A stretch of DNA of 64,000 nt from Asticcacaulis sp. MM231. Its GTDB lineage: Bacteria; Pseudomonadota; Alphaproteobacteria; Caulobacterales; Caulobacteraceae. The notes beneath the pieces are model-generated. The model was not told where the DNA came from. It was given only the letters and a program-made list of their open reading frames with translations, and did no database searches. How positions within the stretch are numbered: the first letter of the stretch is position 1; every line of letters begins with the position of its first letter. Positions 26,711 through 63,729 of the stretch are shown here, piece by piece. The stretch covers positions 3,113,001-3,177,000 of the forward strand of contig NZ_OZ075108.1 of the NCBI RefSeq assembly GCF_964186625.1, written 5' to 3'. The position numbers and the translations under genes were made by a program.

Positions 26711-26931
26711 CAGAAAGCTGGAAATGGGTATATGCAGCTTTCTGCCCCAATAGCAGCTTTGTCAATCCTAAAGAAACAGCGTTTTCAAATGCTTGTTTCT
26801 TTAGGGCATTGTTTGCGCTCATCCCGCTAGGGCATGCCTCGCAAAGGCTCAGGCGGCCATAAAACGAGAATATGGTGCCCTTGCCAAATCCCAAGGGATT
26901 TGGAGGTTTGCGCTCATGCCGCTAGAGCATG
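26711..26931. repeat. Cluster of hairpins and short repeats between eda and the LacI gene
   Basis: Three structures: arms CAGAAAGCTG (26711-26720) and CAGCTTTCTG (26735-26744); arms CTAAAGAAACA (26768-26778) and TGTTTCTTTAG (26794-26804); and CCAAATCCC/GGGATTTGG (inside 26877-26905). A 26-bp direct repeat starting GTTTGCGCTCAT and ending in GCATG occurs at 26811-26836 and 26906-26931 with two differences. The region is the leader of the LacI gene or spacer DNA after eda; no gene is seen in it. Confidence 0.6.
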
Positions 26932-45548: not shown

Positions 45549-45671
45549 AGCAAGAAACCCCACCACCATTTCGCCTTCGGCTCATGGTCCCCCTCCCCAT
45601 CAAAGATGGGGAGGTATAAGTCTATTCTTGTACCGCGCCTCCTTTGAGGCGGGGTGGTTGGTTTCTTGCTT
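45548..45671. repeat. Palindromic repeat element with 12-bp terminal inverted repeats
   Basis: AAGCAAGAAACC (45548-45559) and GGTTTCTTGCTT (45660-45671) are perfect inverted ends. The inside carries a unit of the family GGGGAGG-GGACC-hairpin-GGTGGTGGGG in reverse. It begins on the last base of the pleC stop codon and ends 29 bp before the GreB-like ATG. It is a gene-less relative of the DUF559 cassette. Confidence 0.7.
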
Positions 45672-45700: not shown

Positions 45701-46180
45701 ATGAGTGTAGCCTTTACCAAAGACGAAGATCACGAAGCCGCGGCCGCCAACCTGCCCGATCGTCCGATCTCGCCCCATCCCAACCTCGTCACGCCCGAAG
45801 GCCTGGCTTTTCTGGAAACCGCCTTCGCCGAGGCCAAGGCCGCCTATAGCGCCGCACAGGCCTCAGGCCTGATCAACGCAGACCGTACCGCCATGGCGCG
45901 CGCCGCCCGCGACCTGCGCTATTACACCGCCCGCCTGGGTTCGGCGCAGCGCATCGATCCGGTAACATCGCCGCAAAAGGTGGTGTTCGGCTGTGAGGTC
46001 ATCATCGCCCGCGAGGATGGCCGCCAACAGACCTTCCGGATCGTGGGCGAGGACGAGGCCGATCCCAATAAGGGCAGCATTTCCTACGTGTCGCCAATGG
46101 CGCGCGCCCTGCTCGGCAAGGAAATCGGCGACGAGGTTCAGGTGGCTGGCGCCGGTGTCGAGATTACCGCGATACGCTAA
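45701..46180 (+). CDS. GreA/GreB-family transcription elongation factor
   Basis: 159 aa. N-terminal coiled coil (TPEGLAFLETAFAEAKAAYSAAQASGLI...ARAARDLRYYTARLGSAQRID) that would enter the RNA polymerase secondary channel, and C-terminal FKBP-like domain (VVFGCEVIIAREDGRQQTFRIVGEDEADPNKGSISYVSPMARALLGKEIGDEV). The opening KDEDHEAAAANLPDRPISPHPN is typical of the GreB-like alphaproteobacterial group. ATG 45701 starts the conserved sequence. The last codons ACC GCG ATA CGC TAA belong to a 14-bp repeat that is copied at 46682. Confidence 0.85.
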   Translation: MSVAFTKDEDHEAAAANLPDRPISPHPNLVTPEGLAFLETAFAEAKAAYSAAQASGLINADRTAMARAARDLRYYTARLGSAQRIDPVTSPQKVVFGCEVIIAREDGRQQTFRIVGEDEADPNKGSISYVSPMARALLGKEIGDEVQVAGAGVEITAIR

Positions 46181-46695
46181 GTAATTCTCTTCGCCCGCCC
46201 CGTTTACGGGGAGGGGGGACCGCTGTCAGGCGGTGGGAGGGGCCTTAAGCGCCTTGACGCGCTCCCAAGCCAAAATAATAACACCCTCGGCAGCCTCATC
46301 AGGTCTCATCAGTAGATCACGCGCTATAATACGATAGGTGAGAATGTTCCGATCCATCAGCCAACGACCACGCTTGGAGTCATGCTCCCTTTGATGATCA
46401 AGCGTATGAATTTCGCCATCAACCTCAACACATAACTTCGCTTTGGGGCAGTAGAAATCCAGCACATAGGGGCCCAGCGGATGCTGATTACGAAAAATAA
46501 GACCATCAGCTTCACGCTGCTTCAAGCGCAACCAAAGCCATAATTCCGGCTTCGTCAAATTCCGGCGCAAGTGACGCGCAACCCCAATTCTAGCACCTTT
46601 TCTTAGGTTTCGCACTAAACTCCCCTCCCACCATCGCAAGCGATGGTCCCCCCTCCCCGTAAACGGGGCGGGCGAAGAATCACCGCGATACGCTA
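46166..46695. mobile_element. DUF559-nuclease cassette flanked by inverted palindromic repeats and a 14-bp direct repeat
   Basis: ACCGCGATACGCTA occurs at 46166-46179 and again at 46682-46695. Between them (46180-46681, 502 bp) lie imperfect terminal inverted repeats of about 50 bp: TTCGCCCGCCCCGTTTACGG, then AGGGGGGACC, a hairpin and GGTGGGAGGGG, with the mirror copy at 46616-46680. A DUF559 gene fills the middle. The layout is that of a transposable element with a target-site duplication. Without the insert, GreB would end CGC TAG and the opposite gene CGG TAA; with it they end TAA and TGA, and both proteins are unchanged. Confidence 0.8.
46226..46615 (-). CDS. DUF559 endonuclease-like protein (Vsr/PD-(D/E)XK fold)
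   Basis: 129 aa. HLRRNLTKPELWLWLRLKQRE and FRNQHPLGPYVLDFYCPKAKLCVEVDGEIH are DUF559 signatures: D in VLDFYC, E and D in VEVDG and a following His form the likely metal site, as in Vsr mismatch-nicking enzymes. GTG 46615 is preferred: GGGAGGGGAG from the flanking repeat lies right before it (a TTG at 46639 would start inside the repeat). The last residues APPTA come from the other repeat. GC content is visibly lower than in the neighbouring genes. Putative role: DNA nicking or cleavage for mobility of its repeats (inference). Confidence 0.75.
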   Translation of the reverse strand: MRNLRKGARIGVARHLRRNLTKPELWLWLRLKQREADGLIFRNQHPLGPYVLDFYCPKAKLCVEVDGEIHTLDHQREHDSKRGRWLMDRNILTYRIIARDLLMRPDEAAEGVIILAWERVKALKAPPTA

Positions 46696-47213
46696 GCCGC
46701 AGCGCTCATATCACCACCGCCGACCTGTACCGGCGGCTTGTCGTCCTTTTCGATAAAGCGATCGAAACGGCCGCTTGGCCGCAGCAGCGTCTTGCTGAGG
46801 AAGCTGCGCTCGCGCGCCGGCAGTTCCTTCATGTTGAGGATCAGGGTGTTCTCGATCTTGCCCCGCGCATCGTTCTCGGCGCTGCGGGCCTGCTCCGACA
46901 GCATGGCGACCTGTGCCGCGTCAAATGGGTCCTTCGCCGCCAGATCATTGGCCTGGGCGCGCAGGGACCGCGCCTTGGTCATGTCAGCCTCGCCACTCAG
47001 GGCCGCCGATTTGAGCAGCAGATAGATGTGATGGCGCTCTTCCTTCGTGGTGTTCTTGCTGGCGTCATGCCACGCCTTCGACATCGCCAACGGGCGCTGG
47101 AAATCACGCATATGGCGCTTGAACACGATGCCGGCGCCGATACCGGCGGCAATCAGGAACAGGTTCAGCACCAGCGAAATCACCAGAGCCCATTTCAGGC
47201 GACGATCCGTCAT
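46680..47213 (-). CDS. Membrane-anchored periplasmic sensor-like protein (heavy-metal/CnrX or Spy-like)
   Basis: 177 aa. A membrane helix at about 8-30 (ALVISLVLNLFLIAAGIGAG) and a helical periplasmic part with AMSKAWHDASKNTTKEERHH, ALSGEADMTKARSLRAQANDLA and LSEQARSAENDARGKIENTL. The four-helix pattern resembles CnrX and Spy/CpxP-type (LTXXQ) proteins that sense metals or misfolded protein. It is 2 bp after the anti-sigma-like gene in a three-gene unit. The C-terminal SVSR plus stop is encoded by the 14-bp repeat flanking the DUF559 cassette. Confidence 0.7.
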   Translation of the reverse strand: MTDRRLKWALVISLVLNLFLIAAGIGAGIVFKRHMRDFQRPLAMSKAWHDASKNTTKEERHHIYLLLKSAALSGEADMTKARSLRAQANDLAAKDPFDAAQVAMLSEQARSAENDARGKIENTLILNMKELPARERSFLSKTLLRPSGRFDRFIEKDDKPPVQVGGGDMSAAASVSR

Positions 47214-53507: not shown

Positions 53508-53535
53508 GAAATGGACGTTACCTTGTCGAGGCTCA

Positions 53536-53669
53536 TCTCGCCTCCCCCGTTTATGGGGAAGGTGGCATTTGCGCAGCAAATGACGGAAGGGGCCATTCCA
53601 CCGCCCTTAGCCCCTCCCATCATCGCAAGCGATGGTCCCCCCTCCCCGCTTCGCAGGGAGGGCGAAAAG
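53536..53669. repeat. Palindromic repeat element between response regulator and kinase
   Basis: Ends CTCGCCTCCC and GGGAGGGCGAAAAG are roughly inverted. The right half CCCCTCCCATC-ATCGCAAGCGAT-GGTCCCCCCTCCCC is nearly identical to the right flank of the DUF559 cassette (46621-46657). It splits a regulator-kinase operon, ending 5 bp before the regulator stop. Confidence 0.7.
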
Positions 53670-62214: not shown

Positions 62215-63729
62215 TTATAAAACAGAAGCTTCCCGGTTGGCCGGCAGCCGGGCCAGCACCATCAGCCCGCCCAGAGCGGCGCGCTCGAACTGCAACTGGC
62301 CACCATAAGCGCGCACCAGTTCATCGACAATGCTGAGGCCAAGGCCCGATCCCGGCACGCTTTCATCAAGACGGGCGCCCCGTTTCAGCACCTCGTCGAA
62401 ACGCGCCTCATCAAGCCCCGGACCATCATCCTCGATACCCAGAGTCATGGTCTGGTCGGCATCATGAAAAGCCGCCGTGATCCGTACCTTGCGCTTGCAC
62501 CAGATACAGGCGTTTTCGAGCAGATTGCCGGCGATTTCCTGCAAATCCTGTTTCTCACCCCGGAATGCCAGATCATCGGGCGCGCGCCAGTCGATGATGA
62601 CGCCCTTGTCGTGAAACACCTGCTCCAGCATGACCGCCAGTTCATCGAGCACCGGTTCGACCGGGGTGCGTTCGCCCATGGACTGAGAGCGCGCGGCGGC
62701 GCGGGCGCGGCGCAGATGGTGATCGACCTGCGCCCGCATGGTTTCGGCCTGCTTGCGCATGGTTTCAGGCAGCGTCCCCTCGGCTTCGCCCGCCGTGGCC
62801 ATCAGCACCGACAGCGGCGTCTTCAGCGCATGGGCCAGATTACCGACGTGCATGCGCTGGCGCTCTACCACCTCCTGCGAATAGTCGAGAAAGGCGTTGA
62901 GCTGGGTCGCCACCGGGGTGATCTCGGCCGGATAGGTTTTGAGCAGGCGCTGCTGCCGCCCGCCCTGCACGCTGGCGATTTCGTCGGTCAGGTCGAACAG
63001 CGGCCGCAAACCGACGCGCACCTGCAGGAAGATGGCGATCAGAGACCCCAGCGCCAGAACGATCAGCGCCGCCGCTGTCAGCAGGGCGAAGGTGCGCACG
63101 TCCTTATTGACCGGGCTGGCGTCCTCGCCGGCCATGAAGACATAGGCCTTCTTGCCGACCATCGAATAGATGACGGCGACGCGCAAAGGCTCGCCCACCG
63201 GCCCGAGGCCATCATAGAAAACACTGGTGCCGGTCGACTTGCGCGCTTTTTCCAGCACCGCTGGCGGCAGGGGTAACTGCTCGTTCCATAGCGAGCGCGA
63301 GGTTACGGGGCCGACAAGCGCGCCCTTGGCATCGACCTCGCCGACCTGCCAGTAAAGTCCAGAATGAATAATGCTCGACCTCGCATCGACAAAGCGCGCT
63401 GTATCAATACCCGACGGCCCCAGAGTGTCGTCGATATTGGTGACCGAGAAGAGATTGTCAGCGAACTGCCCGACCCCGACCTCAAAGCGGTGCATCGTCA
63501 CCTGATGAAAATAGGCGGTAAGCGCGAGGCCGGTGACCACCAGCGCGAAGAAGAACCACAGCGAGGCCAGCCCGATCAGGCGAGTGACCAGCGAATCCTT
63601 ACGCGTCAGCCGACGCCACAGCTTGCTGAGTATGTGCTCAGGTGCCGCACCGGCTCCTCGCAAAGCCTCGGGCGGGCGGTCGCCCTTGCCAAATGCTGAC
63701 GCATTTGGAGATGAATCGTTCTGCGTCAC
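62215..63729 (-). CDS. FeuQ/PhoQ-like sensor histidine kinase
   Basis: 504 aa. Membrane helices at about 52-75 and 214-236 flank a periplasmic sensor domain; then HAMP-like linker, HisKA with H300 in GNLAHALKTPLSVLMATAGEAEG and HATPase_c (NLLENACIWCKR, DDGPGLDEA, GSGLGLSIVDEL). The HALKTPLSVL form marks the PhoQ/FeuQ group, which responds to periplasmic glucans or divalent cations. ATG 63729 overlaps the regulator stop (ATGA). Residues 7-16 (SPNASAFGKG) are encoded by a short hairpin repeat. Confidence 0.88.
   Translation of the reverse strand: MTQNDSSPNASAFGKGDRPPEALRGAGAAPEHILSKLWRRLTRKDSLVTRLIGLASLWFFFALVVTGLALTAYFHQVTMHRFEVGVGQFADNLFSVTNIDDTLGPSGIDTARFVDARSSIIHSGLYWQVGEVDAKGALVGPVTSRSLWNEQLPLPPAVLEKARKSTGTSVFYDGLGPVGEPLRVAVIYSMVGKKAYVFMAGEDASPVNKDVRTFALLTAAALIVLALGSLIAIFLQVRVGLRPLFDLTDEIASVQGGRQQRLLKTYPAEITPVATQLNAFLDYSQEVVERQRMHVGNLAHALKTPLSVLMATAGEAEGTLPETMRKQAETMRAQVDHHLRRARAAARSQSMGERTPVEPVLDELAVMLEQVFHDKGVIIDWRAPDDLAFRGEKQDLQEIAGNLLENACIWCKRKVRITAAFHDADQTMTLGIEDDGPGLDEARFDEVLKRGARLDESVPGSGLGLSIVDELVRAYGGQLQFERAALGGLMVLARLPANREASVL
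63682..63710. repeat. Hairpin repeat within the kinase 5' end, second copy of 26877-26905
   Basis: GCCCTTGCCAAAT-GC-TGAC-GC-ATTTGGAG. The copy at 26877-26905 is identical outside the stem tip but has CCC-AA-GGG there, so the pairing is kept by compensating changes. Here it lies in frame inside the FeuQ-like gene. Confidence 0.6.

Follow-up and report, generated by a model that had tools for sequence, protein, structure and literature searches.

A DUF559 nuclease gene between inverted double-hairpin repeats in Asticcacaulis: a candidate REP-type mobile unit

The window, a stretch of 64,000 nucleotides from the genome of Asticcacaulis sp. MM231, contains a unit of 489–491 bp that consists of a single DUF559 gene with a repeat arm at either end. 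The unit lies between the 3' ends of two genes: the left neighbour (45701–46180, + strand) encodes a GreA/GreB C-terminal domain, and the right neighbour (46680–47213, − strand) matches Metal_resist (PF13801). A preliminary description of this DNA had called these genes GreB-like and sensor-like; the second gene is not clearly a sensor. Exact copies of ACCGCGATACGCTA, read directly in the sequence, bracket the unit at 46166–46179 and 46682–46695, in agreement with that description to the letter. When one mismatch is allowed, the direct repeat extends to 17 bp, with the left copy (46163–46179) at the 3' end of the GreA/GreB-like gene and the right copy (46679–46695) at the 3' end of the Metal_resist-like gene. 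On the right side, the unit directly adjoins the duplicate; on the left side, eight additional bases, AGTAATTC (46180–46187), intervene, the first of which completes the TAA stop codon of the left gene.

The left arm (46188–46252, + strand) and the inverted right arm (46612–46678, − strand) are each built from two hairpins, an outer one (CCCCGTTTACGGGG) and an inner one containing GGACC...GGTGG; in the left arm, these are represented by CTTCGCCCGCCCCGTTTACGGGG and by a hairpin ending in GGTGGGAGGGG. The outer parts of the two arms (46188–46221 and 46645–46678) form an inverted repeat of 34 bp with 100% complementarity, and the inner parts (46232–46252 and 46612–46632) one of 21 bp with 81% complementarity. 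When the arms were folded as single strands of DNA, the right one was more stable than all 200 of 200 shuffled sequences, while 13 of 200 shuffles were as stable as the left arm. The DUF559 gene (46226–46615, − strand) most likely starts at the GTG at 46615, giving a protein of 129 amino acids, just after the inner end of the right arm, GGGAGGGG, which occupies the expected position of the ribosome-binding site; a TTG at 46639, giving 137 amino acids, is also possible. The stop codon lies within the left arm, which supplies the last residues, APPTA, as well. Thus, the inverted terminal repeats around one gene, and their donation of the ribosome-binding site and the last residues to it, are borne out by the sequence. 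The gene is also richer in AT than its surroundings, as previously noted, with a GC content of 51.0%, compared to 64.6% and 62.2% for the neighbours. An Rfam search of the window gave no match, PADLOC returned only a weak match to DpdF (1.4e-6), and a match to NCBIfam PRK09767 fell below its cut-off.

The protein matches the DUF559 profile (PF04480) with an E-value of 4e-21 and 75.4 bits, against a cut-off of 20.6; beyond DUF559, the profile search of the unit gave just a sub-threshold match to MTES_1575. An AlphaFold2 model had a mean pLDDT of 84.6, and the closest solved structures to this model were 3hrl, an endonuclease-like protein (E 2.2e-4), and the homing endonuclease I-Bth0305I (E 8.8e-4), while the match to the Vsr structure was weak (E 0.64). 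The catalytic fold of I-Bth0305I (3r3p) was matched with a TM score of 0.78–0.79, normalized by the length of I-Bth0305I; unlike that enzyme, the gene in the window is associated with no intron or intein and no fixed homing site. Thirteen columns were invariant across 19 aligned sequences, including E33, D62, E73, H79 and D88 (19/19), and we take these acidic and histidine residues to have the roles that they have in PD-(D/E)XK, Vsr-like nucleases. By its predicted fold and conserved residues, the protein is most readily classified as a nuclease of this kind, from which we infer catalytic activity. The pN/pS ratio was 0.08–0.30 over 11 pairs, indicating that selection preserves the protein. 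The same domain is found in E. coli YcjD, assigned earlier to the PD-(D/E)XK group (PMC1189080), and in Caulobacter VsrA. VsrA is responsible for the DNA-damage response seen in a methyltransferase mutant, works with a cytosine methyltransferase in the cell, and is discussed as a mismatch-repair enzyme (PMC12907096). VsrA thus indicates that proteins of the DUF559 family are able to act on DNA inside cells.

The preliminary description had proposed that an empty site with a single 14-bp copy be sought in related genomes. Such a site is present in G002, the closest relative compared (97% protein identity in the neighbour gene), where the junction of the two genes contains one ATCACCGCGATACGCTA and neither insert nor filler. 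In G023 and G011, too, both genes are joined at this junction without the insert. A recent insertion is therefore backed by both the empty site and the duplication, and the comparison shows that the unit arrived here only once this lineage and its closest relative had diverged.

The duplication itself is exceptional. Of the 101 elements whose inverted arms were strong, the one in the window alone was flanked by a direct repeat of at least 12 bp, while none of 2020 mismatched flank pairs had one; at a threshold of at least 10 bp, there were two of 101 elements and eight of 2020 mismatched pairs. The duplication in the window is therefore more than a chance repeat. Neither of two clean gene-less insertions in G002 (see below) had a target duplication. 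A regular target-site duplication was therefore rejected as a trait of the family, and, by the refuting test that the preliminary description had set, its suggestion of transposition with target duplication fails, whereas the link between gene and repeats passes. Read by eye, the filler AGTAATTC agrees at six of seven bases with the right junction, GAATCAC, when the latter is reverse-complemented; this is a hint that repair involved fold-back synthesis.

The arrangement recurs widely around DUF559 genes. Inverted arms were called at a score of at least 40, with the outer flanks as control. In the genus set (95 of 113 matches fetched, 92 testable), 66 of 92 loci reached this score, compared to 1 of 92 controls. 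The set from other organisms comprised 55 loci (80 kept of 594, minus 25 Asticcacaulis records, many of which duplicated loci of the genus set), including Caulobacter, Phenylobacterium, Brevundimonas, Sphingomonadaceae and Rhizobiales; 52 were testable, and 35 of these reached 40, compared to 0 of 48 controls. Among the best 30 loci from 299 genomes in a phylum-wide search, 11 of the 29 testable loci did so (control 0/29). Nine further loci were picked by hand from matches in a plasmid collection: three reached 40 (Azospirillum lipoferum, Deinococcus and Sphingobium), and the others scored 16–34, with hairpins of the CTCCCC or CTCTCCC type near several, including E. coli ycjD. The stop codon lay at a median of −2 nt relative to the inner end of the arm (n = 92). 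The supposition that DUF559 genes elsewhere would have inverted flanking repeats, and that gene and repeats travel as one unit, is thus supported across the genus and far beyond, while direct repeats of 12 bp or more were absent from all the other elements. Two to three DUF559 genes or pieces are clustered like small arrays at three places in the genus (G011:C12:95017-96820, G012:C29:72970-74098 and G019:C52:16952-17818).

The type of repeat is coupled to the type of protein. Over 77 independent sites, arm similarity was correlated with protein similarity (Mantel rho 0.22, 0/1000 permutations), and the arm score of nearest neighbours was 55.9, compared to 29.8 ± 1.5. Genus loci alone gave a rho of 0.17 (5/1000 permutations), and there was no correlation within single genomes (59 pairs, rho 0.02). 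By comparison, gene and arms occur together at almost all places, and similar proteins carry similar arms even where the sites are unrelated. The number of repeats also followed the number of DUF559 genes, with a rho of 0.69 over 149 genomes and 0.66 outside the genus (n = 124), both uncorrected for kinship, and a weak relationship within the genus (rho 0.37, p 0.07, n = 25). The median number of repeats was 0 in 38 genomes without DUF559, 18 of these zeros being genomes absent from a count listing, and 14 in 111 genomes with DUF559; G024 and G006, which have no DUF559 gene, are exceptions with 46 and 34 repeats, respectively. Counting the gene-bearing arms, the repeat type of the window had 139 copies in the nine genus genomes with a DUF559 gene of that arm type (70 in G009, 29 in G010, 22 in G022 and 9 in G003, for example) and 32 copies in the other 16, among which G017 had seven copies and no matching gene was found. 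A second repeat type (GGGGGAGCTTYTATTTGA) was restricted to 5 of 25 genomes, all five of which have the corresponding gene or a remnant of it.

There are seven DUF559 genes in this genome, all with repeats on both sides by eye; by score, four of seven reach 40. At the six loci other than that described above (L001–L006), the gene is missing in G002, with a flank identity of 93–97%. The matching G002 site has a repeat or a simple palindrome at L003, L004, L005 and L006, that is, at four of the genome's seven sites, and neither at L001, L002 and the site of the window unit. With both flanks aligned, G011, G017 and G023 likewise lack the gene at L002 and L006; there was no prior repeat at L002 or in the outgroups of L006. 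The L001 gene is present in G017, indicating that G002 lost it. This gene lies upstream of ribD (L001:1465-2500), in the same place in 14 genomes of the genus; some copies are thus stable. In the present genome, its frame reads through the right repeat, which encodes PHPSPLPVNGERG, into the next gene. A 14-bp direct repeat at this locus (L001:614-627 and 1941-1954) has one copy beside the right repeat and the other about 700 bp upstream. At L005 (compared with L082 and L085), about 400 bp that are retained in G002 and G011 are gone here, where the DUF559 unit stands.

Gene-less repeats are also present in the window. A facing pair at 53533–53668 is missing at the matching G002 site; its right half corresponds to the inner hairpin ATCGCAAGCGAT plus the CCCCCCTCCCC arm of the element, while its left half is similar to the L006 arms. 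At 45550–45622, where G002 differs, there is a unit of GGGGACC...GGTGGTGGGG type. Palindromic insertions at 26838–26906 and 63629–63726, which also differ from G002, belong to another repeat type (GGCGG...TTGCCAAAT).

Comparison of stretches between G000 and G002 showed that gene-less pairs are polymorphic, with the two clean insertions in G002 mentioned above. The fresh insertions in G002 are of a pair type for which the gene is absent from that genome today. By comparison, such pairs have been gained and lost. Whole units have been copied as well. G132 contains two copies of a unit at unrelated sites, with identical protein and 98.8% identity over 672 bp. One of these sites, inspected by eye in 11 relatives, was empty in four, occupied by a gene-less pair in four and by another palindrome in one, and was not resolved in two. 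Two copies in A. solisilvae are alike from CTTCGCC, the unit end in both, to GGCGAAG, and unlike outside. These copies are old, with 76% base identity and saturated synonymous sites, and one arm is nevertheless 98% identical, so that arms can be renewed independently of the gene. A recent duplication was considered for L172/L181 and rejected because the synonymous sites are saturated. A single intergenic hotspot (L331–L343), which we take to adjoin the start of a recO-like gene, is empty or occupied by differing repeat pairs or by a whole unit among related genomes.

The closest parallel to this organization is the RAYT/REP system (REPtron), in which one gene likewise lies between inverted REPs, gene-less dimers are found genome-wide, and the repeat type is tied to the enzyme type. 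The preliminary analogy to RAYT and REP pairs was apt in this shared layout. However, RAYTs belong to the HUH tyrosine transposases, with GTAG carried by the REPs (PMC3733652), whereas the window unit has a PD-(D/E)XK nuclease, with no HUH tyrosine transposase found in the profile search, and its arms have no GTAG tag. The same text describes, as of 2013, a class of CGTC REPs that are palindromic, form opposed pairs, occur mostly in alphaproteobacteria, and are apparently without a dedicated transposase; their features are a CGTC (or TGTC/CCTC) end tag, an A-T stem base and a CCA tail (PMC3733652). The window's arms are likewise palindromic, opposed and alphaproteobacterial, but, set against that textual description, have none of these three features. 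The terminal inverted repeats recall a DDE insertion sequence, but there is no DDE transposase, DUF559 being the sole gene, and no regular duplication. In our best reading, the unit parallels the RAYT/REP system with an unrelated enzyme and an unrelated repeat. We consider it fairly probable, from the sequence comparisons, that it is a REP-type mobile unit whose enzyme is the small Vsr-like DUF559 nuclease encoded between two inverted double-hairpin repeats. A search of an open-access full-text library listed no paper that describes DUF559 or YcjD as a mobile gene linked to repeats.

In the mechanism that we propose, the nuclease would recognize hairpins that belong to its own type of repeat and nick or cut a hairpin at the unit ends or at the target, thereby mobilizing the gene-bearing unit and, in trans, gene-less pairs, and host repair or replication would complete the insertion. 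Completion by host repair would explain why the duplication is mostly missing and was found once as 17 bp with an 8-bp filler. The earlier idea that the protein moves its own palindromes is thus retained as the best inference from the coupling of gene and repeat, but not in its version based on target duplication.

The strongest rival is homing, in which, in the manner of homing endonucleases, the nuclease cuts pre-existing hairpin repeats, and the gene is then copied in by recombination with a unit that bears it. The repeats or palindromes at the G002 sites for L003–L006, the gene-less pairs in some relatives at one G132 site, the rarity of target duplications, and the presence of homing endonuclease I-Bth0305I among the nearest solved folds are consistent with this scenario. 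However, there was no earlier repeat at the site of the window unit, at L002, or in the outgroups of L006, and the G002 palindromes may equally be remnants of deletions that ran between short direct repeats within the arms. We regard homing as unlikely. A second explanation is that another enzyme or replication slippage moves the repeats, and that the DUF559 gene either travels with them as a passenger or is retained by the host for repair. The action of VsrA with a cytosine methyltransferase indicates a host role for some members (PMC12907096), several genomes have repeats without the gene, and the ribD-side gene is stable. But no other gene was seen inside the unit at the loci read, and a random passenger would not explain why arm type tracks protein type or why one type of repeat is limited to those genomes that carry its gene. 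We regard this explanation as quite improbable. That these are ordinary intergenic palindromes (terminators) beside a small host gene, with the genome differences due to recombination between repeats, fits the intergenic sites and the simple palindromes at some of them, but is largely refuted by the clean insertion with its empty site and duplicated target and by the identical copies at two unrelated G132 sites, and we give it very little credence.

In E. coli, the DUF559 gene ycjD lies between sapF and fabI with CTCTCCC-type repeats downstream (L277:2488-3067), and a ycjD query matched 5097 of 5426 genomes, with a median of four places in each. The three genomes inspected with other content at this place, H94, H101 and H105, lack ycjD and carry an efflux operon there, so that they offer no clean empty site; a further genome had ycjD. 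The repeats beside ycjD presumably resemble E. coli BoxC, a possible link. BoxC is listed as 56 bp long, with 32 copies (PMC2267715).

Since the unit is mobile and matching hairpins are scattered in many bacterial genomes, the nuclease is a strong candidate for spreading them. What spreads REPs other than the GTAG type is an open question, and for the CGTC class a 2013 survey of tagged REPs came to the conclusion that a dedicated transposase is apparently absent (PMC3733652). One small nuclease family is now tied, type by type, to another large class of hairpin repeats. More tentatively, and with some doubt, a PD-(D/E)XK nuclease without a transposase might run REP spreading across several phyla, as the missing enzyme for the GC-rich CTCCCC/CTCTCCC hairpins, including those beside ycjD. 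The question becomes testable with one protein and one oligonucleotide. The finding offers a candidate function for a domain of unknown function, DUF559, and would place a transposase-free nuclease among the few enzymes able to move DNA.
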